Positions 1 to 6,340 of a stretch of DNA of 6,445 nucleotides are shown piece after piece. The stretch is from a bacterium (lineage in GTDB: Bacteria; ARS69). The stretch lies in NCBI GenBank assembly GCA_025774865.1, contig JALGZO010000745.1, positions 1 to 6,445 of the forward strand, given 5' to 3'. The notes beneath the pieces are model-generated. The model was not told the DNA's origin, did no database searches, and saw nothing but the letters and a program-made list of their open reading frames with translations. The position numbers and the translations under genes were made by a program. Each line of letters opens with the position of its first letter. Position 1 is the stretch's first letter.

Positions 1-221
1 TAACCCGAGAGAAAGAACGAGACCCTCGACGCCTTGCCCAGCGCATTGACGGGCTGGTACTCGACCCGCACCCCGGCTCGAGGGGAGGCGTCGGTCGTGT
101 CGTCGAACTGACCGAGGGGGATCAGGGCTCCGCCCGTGATCGAGAAACGTGTCTGCGCTTCGGCCGCACTCGCCGCCACGAGGAGGGACACTCCCAGGAG
201 GAGTACTCGGCGGAAATTCAT
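1..221 (-). CDS. Secreted outer-membrane beta-barrel-like protein (N-terminal part, runs off the window)
   Basis: Only the first 73 codons are present; the reading frame is open to the left edge, so the C-terminus is outside the window. The ATG at 221 is preceded by AAAGGA (227-232) at a 5-base spacing, which supports this start. Residues 1-22 form a clear Sec signal peptide: Arg4-Arg5, a hydrophobic core (about 6-17) and an AEA cleavage site before Gln23. The mature start (SITGGALIPLGQF, about residues 27-39), followed by a Gly/Val/Tyr-rich stretch, resembles the first strands of small outer membrane beta-barrel proteins. That part is pattern recognition, not proof; a periplasmic protein is possible. 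It is the main evidence here for a diderm host. It has its own candidate promoter in the gap before it and is probably not part of the uppP transcript. Confidence 0.72.
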   Translation of the reverse strand, partial: MNFRRVLLLGVSLLVAASAAEAQTRFSITGGALIPLGQFDDTTDASPRAGVRVEYQPVNALGKASRVSFFLSG

Positions 222-280
222 GATGGTCCTTTCGGCCCTTACGGGTGGTTCGTCGGAGTCGCGGCGAAGGAGGGGAAACC

Positions 281-325: not shown

Positions 326-1141
326 TCAGAAGCCCGGCGCCACCAGCACCAAGAGACCGACGGACAGGCAGTACCCGGCGAACCAGTGGAGCCTTCCCGT
401 CCGGACCACCCGCAGCAGCCACACCAGCGCGACCCAGCCGACGCCGAAAGACGAGAAGAACCCGAGCGCGAGGGGCCCCACCCTCCCCTCCGACGAGCCC
501 AGCAATCCCGGCAGTTCCATGATCATCGAACCCAGAATCAGCGGGATCGCGGCCAGAAACGAGAACTCCGCGGCTCGCCTTCTCCCCACTCCGAGAAAGA
601 TCGCGACCGAAATGGTCACGCCCGATCGCGAGATGCCCGGCAGAATCGCGCACGCCTGGGCCCAGCCGATGAGGAACGCGTTGCCCCAGCTGACCGCTCC
701 CTCGCCTCTCGGCGCCCACCGCGTCGCGAAAAGGATCGCGCCAGTGACCAGCAGATAGCCCGCCACGACCCGAGTATTCGCGAACGCCTCTTCGACGAAA
801 CCCGAGAAGGCGAGTCCGACGATGGCCCCGGGAATCGTCGCGACGACAACCTTGGCGGCGAGCAGCGAATTCGCGCTCCAATCCGCCATCGGTCGGCCGA
901 CCTGCGCGGGCAGCTCGAGAAGACCGCGGATCAGCTCCTGCGTGGGGCGTGAGAACACGATGACGATCGCCAGCAACGTCCCCGCGTGCAGCAGCACCGC
1001 GAACGCCACACCGCCGCCCGGAGCGTCGAGCCACGCCTCGGCGAGCGCGAGGTGTCCGGAGCTCGAGACCGGAAGGAACTCCGTCAGCCCTTGGACGATT
1101 CCGAGCAGTAATGCCTGCCACCACGCGAGCGCTTCATTCAT
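326..1141 (-). CDS. uppP: Undecaprenyl-diphosphate phosphatase (UppP/BacA)
   Basis: This integral membrane enzyme removes a phosphate from undecaprenyl diphosphate, regenerating the lipid carrier for peptidoglycan and other envelope polymers; members of the family confer bacitracin tolerance when abundant. The 271-residue length is typical (E. coli 273). Two family signatures are present. The first is QGLTEFLPVSSSGH at 17-30, giving Gln17, Glu21 and His30 at the positions of the E. coli Glu17/Glu21/His30 motif. The second is PGISRSG at 168-174, with Arg172 matching the conserved catalytic arginine. Hydrophobic segments run through the whole chain, as expected for a multi-spanning protein. The start ATG overlaps the trpA stop as ATGA (1141-1138) with no well-placed ribosome binding site, so translation probably depends on trpA. 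Family assignment is very secure; the link to trpA is only positional. Confidence 0.96.
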   Translation of the reverse strand: MNEALAWWQALLLGIVQGLTEFLPVSSSGHLALAEAWLDAPGGGVAFAVLLHAGTLLAIVIVFSRPTQELIRGLLELPAQVGRPMADWSANSLLAAKVVVATIPGAIVGLAFSGFVEEAFANTRVVAGYLLVTGAILFATRWAPRGEGAVSWGNAFLIGWAQACAILPGISRSGVTISVAIFLGVGRRRAAEFSFLAAIPLILGSMIMELPGLLGSSEGRVGPLALGFFSSFGVGWVALVWLLRVVRTGRLHWFAGYCLSVGLLVLVAPGF

Positions 1142-1947
1142 GCAGAGCGCGCCGCCTCGAGCGCGTGACGCAAAGCACGCGCAGTCTCGCGAAGCTCGCC
1201 GGCGGCCCGGCGGATTGTGCGGGCGCGCTCCACGAGGGCGACGAGCGCACTGCCGACGATGACCCCGTCCGCCAACGCGCCGGCCTCACGCGCCTGGTCG
1301 GGCGTCGAGATGCCGAATCCGAGCCCGACCGGAATGTCCGACATCGACCGCACCTGCTCCAGAACGGGCCGGAACGAGTCGGAGAGACCCTCACGCTCGC
1401 CCGTCACGCCGAGTCGACTCACACAATAGACGAACCCGGTGGTCACCTCGATGACGCGACGAATCCGATCCGCGTCGGAAGTGGGCGCGACGAGGAACAC
1501 CGTACCGAGCCCCTCCGTCTCGGCCGCGGGGAGAAAGGATGCTGACTCCTCGGGGGGGACGTCGGTCAGGATCGTTCCGATCACTCCGGCTGCGCGCGCT
1601 TCCCGGGTGAAACGGTCCCAGCCGAATCGCAGTACCGGGTTGAGATACGTCATGATCACGAGCGGCACACCCGTCCGGTCCCGGATGCGGGCCGCGCACT
1701 CGAGCACGTCGCCGAGTCGAGTGCCGGCCAGGAGCGCTCGCTCCGAGGCGCGCTGAATCACGGGTCCATCCGCCAGGGGATCAGAAAACGGCACTCCGAT
1801 CTCGAGGAGATCCGAACCTCCCTCGACGAGCGCCTCCGCGAAGTCGACGGTCTCCGAAAGGCCGGGATCGCCGGCCGTCAAGTAGGGGATCAATGCGGCT
1901 CGGTTTTCGGAGCGAGTTCGTTCGAAGAGCTCGCGAAGTTCGGTCAA
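1138..1947 (-). CDS. trpA: Tryptophan synthase alpha chain (TrpA)
   Basis: TrpA cleaves indole-3-glycerol phosphate to indole and glyceraldehyde 3-phosphate; indole is passed to the beta subunit TrpB, which joins it to serine. The 269-residue TIM barrel matches the usual length (E. coli 268). PYLTAGDP (21-28) and the catalytic block LEIGVPFSDPLADGP (48-62) are intact, with Glu49 and Asp60 at the E. coli catalytic positions. The flexible loop SRLGVTG (177-183) and the phosphate-binding GFGIS (210-214) and GSA (232-234) are also present. I place the start at the TTG at 1947: it gives the family N-terminus, and it overlaps the stop of the TPR gene as TTGA (1947-1944). The frame stays open upstream to 2445, but that part lies inside the TPR gene and does not resemble TrpA. 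No trpB or other trp gene is adjacent. Confidence 0.95.
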   Translation of the reverse strand: MTELRELFERTRSENRAALIPYLTAGDPGLSETVDFAEALVEGGSDLLEIGVPFSDPLADGPVIQRASERALLAGTRLGDVLECAARIRDRTGVPLVIMTYLNPVLRFGWDRFTREARAAGVIGTILTDVPPEESASFLPAAETEGLGTVFLVAPTSDADRIRRVIEVTTGFVYCVSRLGVTGEREGLSDSFRPVLEQVRSMSDIPVGLGFGISTPDQAREAGALADGVIVGSALVALVERARTIRRAAGELRETARALRHALEAARSA

Positions 1948-3071
1948 GACGGCCGGGCCAGCAGAGCTTCCGACCGACGGTACGCGTCGCGAGCTTCCTC
2001 GCTCGCGCCTTTCTTGTCGTACGCAATCCCGAGATGGTAGTAGGCGCGACTGTCGTCGGGGGCGAGCGCGATCGCGCGCTCGAACGCCGTGATCGCCTCG
2101 TCGACGGCGTCCATCTTGTTGTGGAGGCACCCGAGCGCGTAGTAGGCGCGGGAATCGTCGGGGTTCACCTCGAGCGCGTTGCGGATCTCGCGGATGGCCT
2201 TCGGATAGAGCCCTTTCTTGTGGTACGCCTCGCCGAGGTGATAGTAGGCACGTGCGTTCACCTCGCTCGCCTTCTTCAAGTGCACGATCGCCGTTTCGAA
2301 GAGCCCGCAGTCCAGATAGGCCAGTCCGAGATTGAAGCGCGCCTCGGCGTTCTCGGGGTCGAGCCGAAGCGCGCGGGAGAACTCCTCGATCGCCTCGTCG
2401 AACATGCGGTGCTCGCCGAAGAGAGCCCCGAGGTTCGAGTGCCACTCGGCCCGCGTCGGCTCCAGCGTGACGGCCCGCTTGAGTTCGTGCACGGCGCGCT
2501 CGAAGTCACCCTGACGGTCCAACAACACTCCGAGATTGCCGTGCGCCCTCGCGAAACTGGGATCGGTGTCGAGGGCGGCCTCGTAGGACGCCCGGGCGAG
2601 ATCGTCCTTCCCGTTGCGCGCGTAGGTGACGCCGAGGTGGTACAGCGACTCCGCCGACGGGCCGGAGAGCTCGATTGCCTCGCGATGGTGCTCGAGGGCC
2701 TCGTCGTACATGCCGGCCAGGTCGAGCGTCTTCGCGTACTGCGTGTGGGACGAGGCGTGCTTCGGTTGGAGGGCCAGGCATCGAGTGAAGTAGTCGAGAG
2801 CTTCGTCGACCGCGCCCGCCTTGCGCGCGGCGATCCCGCACTCGAACGCGGGCTCGAGATCCTCCGGGAGAAGCTCCGAGACCTTTCGACGCGCTTCGTA
2901 CTCACCGCGGTAGTCGCGGGCGCGCGCGCAGGCCACCGCGAGACGTCGCCAGCTGTCGGGATCGCGGGCACCGCGCCCCTTCACCTGGCGCTCCGCTTCC
3001 GAAACGTCACGCGACGGTGTGGCCTTGGCCTGGGAACCGTGGCGGGCTCCCCAACCGAGCTTCCCGAGCAT
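1944..3071 (-). CDS. Tetratricopeptide (TPR) repeat protein
   Basis: The 375-residue protein is almost entirely TPR units, which stack as helix pairs and usually bind other proteins or peptides. I can delimit about ten: 37-71, 72-105, 106-139, 140-173, 174-207, 208-241, 242-272, 273-306, 307-340 and 341-375. The first is degenerate, and the seventh is 31 residues instead of 34. The first 36 residues are basic and low in hydrophobicity; there is no signal peptide or membrane segment, so a cytoplasmic location is likely. The ATG at 3071 follows GAGGGGGG (3075-3082) at a workable distance. A strong promoter-like site lies just upstream, and the stop overlaps the trpA start, so this is the first gene of a TPR-trpA-uppP unit. 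The partner and role are unknown. Nothing in the sequence ties the protein to tryptophan synthesis beyond gene order. Confidence 0.93.
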   Translation of the reverse strand: MLGKLGWGARHGSQAKATPSRDVSEAERQVKGRGARDPDSWRRLAVACARARDYRGEYEARRKVSELLPEDLEPAFECGIAARKAGAVDEALDYFTRCLALQPKHASSHTQYAKTLDLAGMYDEALEHHREAIELSGPSAESLYHLGVTYARNGKDDLARASYEAALDTDPSFARAHGNLGVLLDRQGDFERAVHELKRAVTLEPTRAEWHSNLGALFGEHRMFDEAIEEFSRALRLDPENAEARFNLGLAYLDCGLFETAIVHLKKASEVNARAYYHLGEAYHKKGLYPKAIREIRNALEVNPDDSRAYYALGCLHNKMDAVDEAITAFERAIALAPDDSRAYYHLGIAYDKKGASEEARDAYRRSEALLARPS

Positions 3072-3104
3072 CAGCCCCCCTCACCCGTGGTCTGGCCCGC
3101 GCGG

Positions 3105-3134
3105 AATCTAACGTTCCGACTTCCTGAAGGTCAA
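3105..3134 (-). promoter_or_regulatory. Candidate promoter of the TPR-trpA-uppP operon
   Basis: On the minus strand, TTGACC (3134-3129, five of six matches to TTGACA) is followed after 18 bases by TAGATT (3110-3105, four of six matches to TATAAT). Transcription would begin near 3098, giving a leader of about 27 bases containing the GAGGGGGG ribosome binding site. The location directly ahead of the first gene of the unit is right. No operator-like repeat, leader peptide or tryptophan-codon attenuator is visible in this short leader. Confidence 0.5.
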
Positions 3135-3139
3135 GATCC

Positions 3140-3152
3140 GGGCCCTCGGCCC
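3140..3152 (-). terminator. Short hairpin after the mglA-like gene, weak terminator candidate
   Basis: GGGCC and GGCCC pair around a 3-base loop, 12 bases beyond the stop of the GTPase gene. The stem is only 5 base pairs and no T-run follows, so termination is doubtful. It sits just upstream of the -35 of the TPR promoter. Confidence 0.22.
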
Positions 3153-3164
3153 ATGATGGTTCGT

Positions 3165-4190
3165 TCAGCCCTGGGGGTCGAGCGTCAGGTCCAGGATCAG
3201 ACGGATCCGGCGCGCACCACCAGCGAGATCGGCCCCCGAGATCGGAACCGTGATCACCTTCTCGATCACGGCGGCGGGCCGGTCCGCAGCGAGCTCGAGG
3301 CCCGGCGGCGGCGCGGGATTCGGAGGGGGCACCAGTGACTGGATCATGGGCTCCAAGGTCGGCTCGGACAGCGACGGGAACGGAGCCGGAGGCGGCGGGG
3401 CCATCGGAGCGGGCGGAAGAGGAGCCATCGGAGCGGCCGGCGGCGGAGCTATCGGGGCCGGCGGCGGCGGCGCAGGGGCCCGGCGTTGAGGCTGGGGGTC
3501 TCGAATCGCTTCCCGCACCTGATTGACCATCGTGGGATCCACGCGTGGGGCCGCCGGCGGCGGCGCGGCCGCGGGGCGAGACTCCGGTCTCGGCGAGTCG
3601 CCGCGCAGCTGCGCCTCGAGTCGCCGCATCAGCATCTCGGCTACTTTCTCGAACGCCTCGAATACGCCCTCACCGGTGACGGCGACTCCCGGGAAGCTCG
3701 GAACGCCGTACGGGTTCAGTTCCCGGTCGAGCTCCTCGATCGGCATCGCGTCGGGCATGTCCCTCTTGTTGTAGGACATGACCCACGGGAGATCGTCGAG
3801 GCACATTCCGTACTCGAGCAGGTTGGTCCGCAGGTTGCGCAAACTGTCGATGTTGGCGGCAAGCTGAGAGCGCTGCGAATCGGCAACGAAGACGATTGCG
3901 TCGGCTCCCTTGAGCACGAGCTTGCGGGTCGCGTTGTAGTAGACCTGACCGGGGACCGTGTAGAGAAGAAAGCGGACATTGAAGTCTCCGATCGAGCCCC
4001 GACTGATTGGAAGCAGGTCGAAGAAGAGCGTGCGCTCCGCCTTCGTCTTCATCGACACCATCTTGCCACGCGTGTCGGCGGGGGTTTGACCGTAGATGTG
4101 TTCGAGATTCGTCGTCTTCCCGGACAGGGCCGGACCGTAGTACACGATCTTCCCGCTGAGCTCTCGACCTGTGTAGTTGAAGACGACCAT
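3165..4190 (-). CDS. MglA-family small GTPase with long Pro/Ala-rich C-terminal extension
   Basis: MglA proteins are Ras-like switches; in Myxococcus xanthus MglA controls cell polarity and gliding, and its GTPase activity is stimulated by the Roadblock protein MglB. Residues 1-195 align without gaps to that protein in my memory of it. They carry the P-loop GPALSGKT (19-26), Arg53-Thr54, the G3 motif TVPGQ (78-82, with the catalytic Gln82) and NKRD (141-144). Position 21, equivalent to Ras Gly12, is Ala. M. xanthus MglA ends near residue 195; this protein continues to 341. Residues about 196-300 are Pro/Ala-rich with an octapeptide repeat, and about 308-341 form a non-repetitive, strand-like tail (VITVPISG, RIRLILDLTL). 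The ATG at 4190 follows GAGAGGGA (4198-4205) at a 7-base spacing and gives the family N-terminus, although the frame stays open upstream to 4517. No mglB gene is visible. Function in motility or polarity is an inference from the family. Confidence 0.93.
   Translation of the reverse strand: MVVFNYTGRELSGKIVYYGPALSGKTTNLEHIYGQTPADTRGKMVSMKTKAERTLFFDLLPISRGSIGDFNVRFLLYTVPGQVYYNATRKLVLKGADAIVFVADSQRSQLAANIDSLRNLRTNLLEYGMCLDDLPWVMSYNKRDMPDAMPIEELDRELNPYGVPSFPGVAVTGEGVFEAFEKVAEMLMRRLEAQLRGDSPRPESRPAAAPPPAAPRVDPTMVNQVREAIRDPQPQRRAPAPPPPAPIAPPPAAPMAPLPPAPMAPPPPAPFPSLSEPTLEPMIQSLVPPPNPAPPPGLELAADRPAAVIEKVITVPISGADLAGGARRIRLILDLTLDPQG
3387..3458 (-). repeat. Three tandem 24-base units encoding a Pro/Ala octapeptide
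   Basis: Residues 245-268 of the MglA-like protein read as three octapeptides, APIAPPPA, APMAPLPP and APMAPPPP, and a fourth unit begins with APF. Each is encoded by 24 bases, and the DNA copies are similar but not identical. The units form the core of a longer Pro/Ala-rich linker that is likely disordered or extended. Such in-frame repeats can change copy number by slippage or recombination without breaking the frame. Confidence 0.7.
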
Positions 4191-4280: not shown

Positions 4281-4310
4281 TTGACAGGGATTTCGGCAGC
4301 TGCGTAGCTT
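4281..4310 (+). promoter_or_regulatory. Candidate promoter for the acyltransferase-glycosyltransferase pair
   Basis: A perfect TTGACA (4281-4286) is followed after 18 bases by TAGCTT (4305-4310), which matches TATAAT at three positions and resembles the TAGATT seen at two other sites in the window. Transcription would start near 4317. This lies after the TTG at 4309 and before the TTG at 4357, so if real it excludes the more upstream start. It sits in the divergent gap shared with the mglA-like gene. I found no convincing promoter for that gene on the opposite strand. Confidence 0.4.
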
Positions 4311-4344
4311 GACTGAAGTCGACGACCCCTGGACGTGTGCTTCT

Positions 4345-4355
4345 GAGAGAAGAGG
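4345..4355 (+). promoter_or_regulatory. Ribosome binding site deciding the acyltransferase start
   Basis: The purine run GAGAGAAGAGG ends one base before the TTG at 4357; its first GAGAG is 7 bases from that codon. The alternative starts, TTG at 4309 and ATG at 4381, have no comparable run at the right distance. Confidence 0.45.
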
Positions 4356-4356
4356 C

Positions 4357-5184
4357 TTGCTGCTCGCGGCTCTCACCGGAATGGCTCGCACCGTGCCCCT
4401 GGACGTCGGGTATCGGCTCGCGGAGCTCCTCTCGGACGGGCACCGGGTGCTCCATCCGGGGCGCCGGAGGGCCGTGGAGGGGAATCTCCGGGTCCTCGTC
4501 GGGGATCGGGATGTCAAAGGGCTCGTAGGCGAGGTCTTCCGGAACTACGGTCGGTTCCTCTTCGAGTTCATCCGGGGGCCCGAGCTCCCGGAACTGGACT
4601 ACGTGCTGGAAAATCGGGAGGTTCTCGACCGGGCGAGGGCGAGGGGGCGTGGGGTCGTCCTCGCGGTCGTCCATACCGGGAATTGGGAAATCGGTGGCGC
4701 GAGGCTCGCCGCCAGCGGGGTTCGGGTCCACGCCGTCGCGGGGACCCAGCTGCGGGAGGCGTGGACGGATGAGCTCCGCCGGCGACAGGAGCGGATCGGG
4801 GTGCGAATCCTTCCCCCGACGGGGACGGCGTTTCGCGAGATGCCCCGGATTCTGGCGCGAAACGAGGTCGTGGCCTTGCTCATCGACGGGAACCTGTTCC
4901 GGCGCGGAATCCCGGTGCCCCTCTGCGGGCACGAGGTCGAGCTTCCGGCCGGACCGGCCCGTCTCGCGGCCCGAACGGGGGCGGCACTGGTCCCCGCGTT
5001 CTCGGTGCGGTCACCGCACGGTCTGCGGGCCCGGTTTCTCGACGAGGTCCCGGTTCGGGATGCCCGGCCGGAAGCGATTCGAAGAGCCACGACAGAGCTC
5101 GCCGACCGACTCGGTGAGCGACTCGTCGAGCATCCCGAGCAGTGGATGATCTTCCGGCGAGTTTTCGAAGGGCGAGGGTCGTGA
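4357..5184 (+). CDS. LpxL/PatA-type lysophospholipid acyltransferase
   Basis: The family transfers acyl chains from acyl-ACP or acyl-CoA to membrane glycolipids: LpxL/LpxM act on lipid A and PatA on phosphatidylinositol mannosides. Residues are numbered from the TTG at 4357 (275 residues). The HX4E catalytic motif HTGNWE is at 106-111, LIDGN at 175-179, the PAGPARLAARTGAALVP block at about 197-213, and PEQWMIFRR near the C-terminus (260-268). The N-terminus is hydrophobic, with a following basic stretch (RRR at about 36-38), consistent with peripheral attachment to the inner membrane. An upstream TTG at 4309 would add 16 hydrophilic residues and lacks a ribosome binding site; the ATG at 4381 would cut into the N-terminal helix. 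The PimA-like gene follows after 19 bases, which favours a PatA-like role over lipid A acylation; no lipid A genes are near. Family is secure, substrate is not. Confidence 0.9.
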   Translation: MLLAALTGMARTVPLDVGYRLAELLSDGHRVLHPGRRRAVEGNLRVLVGDRDVKGLVGEVFRNYGRFLFEFIRGPELPELDYVLENREVLDRARARGRGVVLAVVHTGNWEIGGARLAASGVRVHAVAGTQLREAWTDELRRRQERIGVRILPPTGTAFREMPRILARNEVVALLIDGNLFRRGIPVPLCGHEVELPAGPARLAARTGAALVPAFSVRSPHGLRARFLDEVPVRDARPEAIRRATTELADRLGERLVEHPEQWMIFRRVFEGRGS

Positions 5185-5196
5185 GGAGGTCGGGAG
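5184..5196 (+). promoter_or_regulatory. Ribosome binding site for the GTG start of the PimA-like gene
   Basis: AGGAGG (5184-5189) overlaps the last base of the acyltransferase stop, and GGGAG (5192-5196) is 7 bases before the GTG at 5204. The second has the better spacing. Together they support the GTG as the true start and co-translation with the preceding gene. Confidence 0.6.
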
Positions 5197-5203
5197 AAAC
5201 ACC

Positions 5204-6340
5204 GTGAGAATCGCCGCCGTGACGCAGCCGTACTACCCCCAGAATGGCGGCGTCTCCGAAAACGTGCATCACACGACGCTCGAGCTCCGGAAGCTCGGGC
5301 ACGACGTGGACATCATCACTTCACGCTTCCGATCGGCGCCCGAGAGCAGCGACGGGGTGCACCGGGTGGGGCGCAACATCCTGGTTCCGCACCTGGGTGC
5401 CTTCGCCAACGTGAACGCCGGCGTGCACCTTTCCCGAGACGTACAGCACCTGTTCGCACGTCACGAGTACGACGTCGTGCACGTGCACGAGCCGATGAGC
5501 CCGACCCTCCCCCTCGTCGCCATCGAGGAGGCTCCCGAGCAGGCGGTGGTGGTCGGCACGTTTCACGCGTCGTCTCAGCGCGGGGTGGCGTACCGCGTGG
5601 GGCGGCGGTTCCTGCGGCGCTACTTCGAGCGCCTCGACGGGCACATCGCGGTGTCACGGGCCGCGCGCCGCTTCGTCCTCCGGTATTTCAACGAGGACTA
5701 TCGCATCATCCCGAACGGCGTCGATCCGGAGCGCTTCCGCCCGTCCGTCGCGCCACTCGACGGCTACGAGGCCGACCGCCCGACGATCCTTTTCGTCGGC
5801 CGTTTCTACCCCCGGAAGGGCTTTCCGATCTTGCTGTCGGCGCTTCCCCACATCAGCGACGTGGTGCCCGACGTGCGCGTTGTCGTCGTCGGTTCCGGCC
5901 CTCTCGCTCCGTGGTACCGCACCCTCGCGCGACGCGCGCCGTGTGAGGTCACCTTCCTGGGCGAGCTCTCGGCGGCCGACATTCCGCGGGCCTACCGCAG
6001 CGCGAACGTGCTGGTCGCTCCGTCGACCGGACAGGAGAGCTTCGGCATCATTCATCTCGAATCGATGGCCTCGGGCGTACCCATCGTCGCCAGCGACATC
6101 GAGGGATACCGCGAGGTCCTCGACCCGGGTCGGGAGGCGCTCCTCTTCCCGAACCGGGACTCCGAACCGCTGGGCTCGGCCGTCGCCCGGGTGCTGACCG
6201 ACCGGCACCTCGCGCAATCCATGGGGGCGGCGGGCCGCGAGAAGGCCGTCCGCTTCTCCTGGTCCGGCATCGCCCGGCAGCTCGAGACCCTCTACCTCGA
6301 GCTGCTCGACCGGAAGCAGCGCATTCGCCTGGCTTCCTGA
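5204..6340 (+). CDS. GT4 glycosyltransferase, PimA-like (probable glycolipid mannosyl/glycosyltransferase)
   Basis: This is a GT-B fold, retaining GT4 enzyme that moves a sugar from a nucleotide donor to an acceptor at the cytoplasmic membrane. The 378 residues match PimA (phosphatidylinositol mannosyltransferase) along the chain. GGVSENV (15-21) is the N-terminal glycine loop, followed by HVHEPMSP (93-100) and TFHASS (119-124, with His121). Next come IPNGVDPERF (169-178), FVGRFYPRKG (197-206, with Arg200 and Lys205 likely contacting the donor diphosphate) and the EX7E motif ESFGIIHLE (278-286). PimA has counterparts for each, and the spacing differs by only a few residues. There is no signal peptide or membrane helix. 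The GTG start is fixed by a good ribosome binding site, and the gene sits 19 bases after the acyltransferase. GDP-mannose as donor and phosphatidylinositol as acceptor are guesses from similarity; two acceptor-side residues differ (see findings). A general capsule or sugar-lipid glycosyltransferase is the alternative. Confidence 0.9.
   Translation: MRIAAVTQPYYPQNGGVSENVHHTTLELRKLGHDVDIITSRFRSAPESSDGVHRVGRNILVPHLGAFANVNAGVHLSRDVQHLFARHEYDVVHVHEPMSPTLPLVAIEEAPEQAVVVGTFHASSQRGVAYRVGRRFLRRYFERLDGHIAVSRAARRFVLRYFNEDYRIIPNGVDPERFRPSVAPLDGYEADRPTILFVGRFYPRKGFPILLSALPHISDVVPDVRVVVVGSGPLAPWYRTLARRAPCEVTFLGELSAADIPRAYRSANVLVAPSTGQESFGIIHLESMASGVPIVASDIEGYREVLDPGREALLFPNRDSEPLGSAVARVLTDRHLAQSMGAAGREKAVRFSWSGIARQLETLYLELLDRKQRIRLAS

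Follow-up and report, generated by a model that had tools for sequence, protein, structure and literature searches.

A PatA-type acyltransferase gene paired with a PimA-clade glycosyltransferase gene in an LPS-bearing lineage outside the actinobacteria points to a probable acylated glycosyl-phosphatidylinositol

The window analyzed here, a single 6,445-base contig of a metagenome-assembled genome (785 contigs, 92.65% complete, 8.3% contaminated), carries a PatA-type acyltransferase gene followed by a PimA-clade glycosyltransferase gene, and the likely product of the pair, in a lineage that bears LPS and lies outside the actinobacteria, is an acylated glycosyl-phosphatidylinositol (estimated probability about 0.72). 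What the sequences themselves show, and what this reading draws on, are the families of the genes, their catalytic residues, the association of the glycosyltransferase clade with genes for inositol lipids, and an LPS-bearing background. Phosphatidylinositol mannosides (PIMs), like the LM and LAM derived from them, count as actinobacterial hallmarks. The PIMs have been described from Mycobacterium, Propionibacterium and other actinobacteria (PMC3229680), and inositol lipids are known in Bacteroidetes (PMC9246714). In the open-access literature, which leaves subscription journals and preprints largely uncovered, no earlier report was found of LPS diderms with PatA-PimA pairs or PIM-like operons, or of PIM-like genes outside Actinobacteria.

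Both open reading frames of the pair were intact, and the coordinates and order proposed in a first-pass annotation, with the acyltransferase gene preceding the glycosyltransferase gene on the same strand at a distance of 19 bases, were borne out (Table 1). The acyltransferase start that it had placed at position 4357 is a plausible in-frame TTG, but the TTG at 4309 is equally plausible. It had also taken the neighbouring gene to encode an outer membrane protein; the adjoining gene actually encodes an MglA-like GTPase, and the outer-membrane-protein-like fragment lies at the opposite end of the window, where a Pfam search of its translation gave zero matches.

Table 1. Genes and gene fragments of the window.
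Feature	Coordinates	Strand	Start	Remarks
PatA-type acyltransferase, Lip_A_acyltrans family	4309..5184	+	TTG	
PimA-clade GT4 glycosyltransferase	5204..6340	+	GTG	
MglA-like small GTPase, Pro-rich C-terminal tail	3165..4190	-		Divergent neighbour of the pair; context only
TPR protein	1944..3071	-		Context only
TrpA, tryptophan synthase alpha	1138..1947	-		Context only
UppP/BacA undecaprenyl-diphosphatase	326..1141	-		Context only
3'-truncated ORF, signal-like N-terminus, outer-membrane-protein-like by inspection	1..222	-		74 residues

The glycosyltransferase contains Pfam GT4/GT1 domains (118 bits), and its closest solved relative was M. smegmatis PimA, matched over the full length at 204 bits, with the second-best structure at 90 bits. 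Its structural model aligned with PimA over 354 residues (Z 41.3, 2.7 A, 35% identity) and with the next family at Z 38.2; further GT4 structures also aligned well (Z 35-38, and many above 30), so that the fold alone does not fix specificity. In a maximum-likelihood tree, which included few characterised GT4 families besides PimA and left out the partial sequences of G105 and G140, the window enzyme and Mycobacterium PimA fell together in a 29-member clade with support of 100/100, while the host's own eight GT4 paralogs lay outside it, as did GT4 enzymes from archaea, and this placement was unchanged when the tree was repeated with near outgroups. With a profile made from actinobacterial PimA sequences only, the window enzyme scored 247 bits, and none of the eight further GT4 enzymes of the genome exceeded 86 bits. 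A generic GT4 identity was ruled out by both trees and by this score gap, and the earlier description of the enzyme as PimA-like, as opposed to capsule- or sucrose-type GT4, was upheld by the clade and the profile. The catalytic and sugar-phosphate residues H118, R196, K202 and E274 of PimA were conserved in the alignment.

The host genome was found to hold a full-length gene for MIPS (inositol-phosphate synthase) together with three CDP-alcohol phosphatidyltransferases, namely a PgsA-type enzyme whose score passes the curated cut-off, a PgsA-like enzyme and a PIPS-type enzyme that matches PIPS structures. The roles of residues in the inositol-phosphate pocket of M. tuberculosis PgsA1 have been described (PMC6506517), and R94, S132, K135, R137, R152, R155 and R195 of that protein are all kept in the host PIPS but not in the two PgsA paralogs. 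Against NCBIfam, the host PIPS scored 142.6 bits with the BT1523 model, 138.6 bits with the PIPS model and 142.6 bits with the archaeal model, all under cut-off. Since PIPS was detected in 5/5 genomes of the host phylum (62-70% identity) and MIPS in 4/5, binning contamination was ruled out as their source. Neither gene adjoins the acyltransferase-glycosyltransferase pair in the host genome. LPS synthesis by the host is indicated by its gene content: LpxC is present in two contig pieces, LptC and LptB genes lie beside a contig-end LpxL C-terminal fragment, and there is a separate second LpxL-type acyltransferase gene. The first-pass annotation had envisaged a PIM-like glycolipid in a diderm, non-actinobacterial host, and this proposal has gained support on each side, the outer membrane from LpxC, LptB and LptC, and the glycolipid from the finding of MIPS and of a PgsA1/PIPS-type enzyme with every inositol-phosphate residue, in a genome where the window acyltransferase is not the sole LpxL.

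The link to inositol lipids extends well beyond the host. In a survey set of 386 diverse genomes, PIPS was present in 137 and MIPS in 157. Glycosyltransferase matches (threshold E up to 1e-35) were obtained in 31 genomes, 30 of which carry PIPS (Fisher p = 7e-14) and 30 MIPS (p = 6e-12), and 30 of the 31 have both genes against a background of 32%; counted by family, both occur in 19 of 20 (background 32%, p = 7e-9), and all these p-values are indicative, as the matches were chosen by similarity to the window and the families are not fully independent. The sole exception, G155, has the weakest glycosyltransferase match and was placed outside the PimA clade in the tree. Such enzymes share one operon with both inositol genes in unrelated bacteria: in G339 and G068 the genes are arranged as PIPS-MIPS-acyltransferase-glycosyltransferase-acyltransferase-PHP, G380 has the same genes rearranged, and in G335 the glycosyltransferase gene adjoins PIPS. 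These operons and this adjacency tie the glycosyltransferase clade to inositol lipids. A Mycobacterium-like genome (G375) served as the positive control and displayed the order PIPS-PatA-PimA-NUDIX. The operons of G339 (L153, 3818-9279), G068 (L154, 4264-9919) and G380 (L157, 5257-10404) are compact and have two PF03279 acyltransferases; the second of these may add a fourth chain, and the PHP-domain phosphoesterase could be the phosphatidylinositol phosphate phosphatase.

The pair itself is syntenic in two other genera of the host's family (G002 and G003; 57/71% and 52/60% identity), and this conservation in sister genera indicates that the adjacency is not due to chance. Adjacent acyltransferase-glycosyltransferase pairs were also found in families f174, f69 and f135, in G034 (f31) and in the Mycobacterium-like control; in two incomplete genomes of the host's family (67% and 82% complete) no pair was detected, and the neighbourhoods at the GC-rich loci L160, L163 and L166 rest on tblastn only. 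LpxC was present in 8/8 non-actinobacterial pair genomes checked besides the window genome, a set that did not include G034, and a search for it in the Mycobacterium-like G375 was negative. An MglA-like GTPase is encoded near the pair in G002, G003, G138 and G329 as well, the TPR protein shows conserved synteny in G002, G003 and G138, TrpA recurs in G003 and G329, and UppP/BacA in G003 and G138. The MglA-TPR-UppP arrangement common to G138 and the TrpA-MglA arrangement common to G329 suggest that the locus may have been vertically inherited among the lineages of the host, G138 and G329. Three distinct families thus far share a block close to the pair in which the genes for the MglA-like, polarity-type GTPase and the TPR protein are joined by UppP or TrpA (window 326-4190; L051, L050, L167, L161). 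In G138 an MFS transporter gene (Pfam MFS; L167, 4425-5642) adjoins the pair, and in G105 a protein resembling this transporter is encoded between the glycosyltransferase and the acyltransferase (L159, 2879-4231); the MFS-type protein at these two loci is a possible glycolipid flippase.

The acyltransferase matched PF03279 (102 bits, Pfam), and its top solved relative by sequence was PatA at 70 bits, followed by LpxM at 18 bits. A Foldseek search with its AlphaFold model (pLDDT 89, compared with 92 for the glycosyltransferase model) likewise gave PatA as the best match (E 2e-18), with LpxM at E 5e-13. H122 and D193 align with the catalytic H126 and E200 of PatA; the E200 position is Asp in 3/3 members of the host's family and in most related tree rows, and the catalytic His is invariant. 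The C-terminal motif reads PEQWMIFRR in the window enzyme, PEDWHMLQP in PatA and PEQYMWLHRRFK in LpxL, and in the alignment the LpxL motif PEQYxWxHRRFK was absent from the window enzyme. In the tree, a 99/97 branch set the window acyltransferase together with PatA and the inositol-operon acyltransferases, apart from E. coli LpxL and the LpxL of the same genome. An LpxL identity was ruled out by this branch and by the C-terminal motif. Acyltransferases that are unpaired and come from MIPS-lacking genomes also fall on the PatA side of the tree, so resemblance to PatA does not by itself prove inositol lipids, and with the NCBIfam PatA equivalog the window enzyme scored 142 bits, under the 209-bit cut-off. 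PatA-like acyltransferases with no adjoining PimA-like glycosyltransferase were seen at L096, L097, L101, L104, L105, L107 and L108, in genomes that lack MIPS and have LpxC where tested.

The most serious alternative is that the product is a different, non-PIM inositol glycolipid, with the glycosyltransferase attaching a sugar other than mannose, such as glucose, GlcN or GlcNAc, either to phosphatidylinositol phosphate or to some other inositol lipid, and the acyl chain placed on inositol or elsewhere. We rate it as a real contender, a little short of an even chance, and it overlaps the preferred explanation, where the sugar stays open. The changes at substrate positions speak for it. Y62, N63, S65 and R68 of PimA, which we take to be its PI-loop residues, and D253 and K256, presumably its guanine contacts, are not matched as a set by the window enzyme. 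N63, the Asn of the NGS loop, is conserved across the clade except in the window family, which has Leu at this position (HLGAFANVN), and this may reflect a change of acceptor; Y62, Q18, N97 and K123 are likewise changed. Only the actinobacterial members of the clade retain both D253 and K256, and the loss of these residues from the window family makes GDP-mannose uncertain as the donor. In PatA, E149, R164 and H284 are predicted to bind PIM2 (PMC4792965), and in the alignment none of the three is kept in the window family (Gly, Gln/His and Met/Ser). With substrate-binding residues of both mycobacterial enzymes changed, the product may differ. The inositol operons of other bacteria, which unlike the mycobacterial cluster hold a PHP-domain protein and two acyltransferases, also favour a non-PIM product, but the conserved catalytic and sugar-phosphate residues and the wide margin by which PimA is the nearest solved relative argue against it. 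These comparisons give good support to the view that the pair acts on an inositol lipid in the manner of PatA-PimA, while its assignment as a phosphatidylinositol mannosyltransferase with a PIM acyltransferase is not established.

It is improbable that the acyltransferase is instead a lipid A enzyme of the LpxL/LpxM type, or a lysophospholipid acyltransferase, lying beside the glycosyltransferase by chance. Membership of PF03279, a family that includes LpxL, and the LPS made by the host would fit such an enzyme, but the missing LpxL motif and the position on the PatA side of the tree do not. The further LpxL-type genes of the genome, one separate and one a fragment beside lptC-lptB, mean that the window enzyme is not the only lipid A candidate, and a chance adjacency is at odds with the recurrence of the pair in four unrelated non-actinobacterial families besides Mycobacterium. 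Still less probable is a glycosyltransferase of capsule, LPS-core, sucrose or glycogen metabolism that is PimA-like only superficially, for which the great size of the GT4 family and the many GT4 structures aligning to the model at Z >30 leave some room, but against which stand the tree, the profile gap, the co-occurrence with PIPS and MIPS and the finding of zero polysaccharide genes around the glycosyltransferase within the window.

For the acylated glycosyl-phosphatidylinositol, we infer the acceptor, the order of the steps and their membrane location as follows. MIPS would convert glucose 6-phosphate to inositol 3-phosphate, which the PgsA1-type enzyme would join with CDP-diacylglycerol to give phosphatidylinositol phosphate, and a putative phosphatase would release phosphatidylinositol. 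On the cytoplasmic side of the inner membrane, the window glycosyltransferase would use a nucleotide sugar to place a hexose, by analogy a mannose, on the inositol, and the PatA-type enzyme would move a third acyl chain from an acyl thioester to the sugar just added. The predicted product, in a diderm that carries LPS, is an acylated glycosyl-phosphatidylinositol similar to PIM1.

Among known systems, mycobacterial PimA (Rv2610c; PDB 2gej, 4n9w), a phosphatidylinositol alpha-mannosyltransferase, resembles the window glycosyltransferase in clade, fold, sequence (34% identity over 370 residues) and position downstream of a PatA-type acyltransferase gene; it differs in N63, other PI-loop residues, D253 and K256, and in the window no PIPS gene lies directly upstream. 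The PIM acyltransferase PatA (Rv2611c; PDB 5f2t, 5oce) is the best sequence and fold match of the window acyltransferase and shares with it the catalytic His, the type of C-terminal motif and the gene order, whereas identity is about 28%, Asp stands for Glu200, the acid of HX4D/E varies among family members (E, D, V), and E149, R164 and H284 are not kept. LpxL and LpxM belong to the same Pfam family as the window acyltransferase, from which the 99/97 branch and the PEQYxWxHRRFK motif separate them. To our knowledge, no PimA/PatA pair is known in the Bacteroides inositol lipid cluster. That cluster (BT_1522-BT_1526) resembles the host system in placing inositol lipids in an LPS diderm, and the host PIPS scores similarly with the BT1523, PIPS and archaeal models; the cluster leads to inositol sphingolipids, and the passages of its description drawn on here mention no PimA/PatA pair (PMC9246714). 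The actinobacterial PIPS-PatA-PimA-NUDIX cluster of the PIM pathway (PMC3229680) has the same enzyme set as the host genome and the same order of the two window genes, but the host has PIPS and MIPS elsewhere in its genome, along with LpxC and LPS-export genes.

Taken at sequence level, these results suggest that a glycolipid thought typical of actinobacteria may be made much more widely, perhaps in altered form. The wider proposal, to which we give even odds, is that many LPS lineages have an overlooked class of envelope lipids, acylated glycosyl-phosphatidylinositols whose sugars replace or accompany mannose, that the PatA-PimA module is ancestral or widely exchanged, and that the actinobacterial PIM pathway is one specialised branch. 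If LPS diderms do make related acylated inositol glycolipids, this would bear on the origin of PIMs and on their envelope role, and the use of PimA/PatA homologs as actinobacterial markers would have to be tempered. A triacylated hexosyl-phosphatidylinositol is predicted in lipid extracts, and the operons of G339, G068 and G380, with nearly every predicted step, offer direct gene targets for a lipid search.

Some minor observations accompany these results. Archaeal GT4 enzymes from Thermococcus, Methanothermococcus and Thermoplasmata (L063, L064, L067-L070) were some of the outgroups closest to the PimA clade and may act on archaetidylinositol. Two PimA-clade glycosyltransferases each were found in G129, G073, G214 and G335 (L164, L170, L175-L177, L179), as if a paralog, and not a PimB'-like enzyme, added the second sugar. 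The acyltransferase match in G198 (L094) contains an in-frame TAG, which may be a frameshift, a sequencing error or a sign of decay. In the host genome, a second, short PgsA-like CDP-alcohol transferase (L014, 1402-1929) lies between recN and trpE; it scored under the PgsA cut-off and is without the inositol-phosphate residues.
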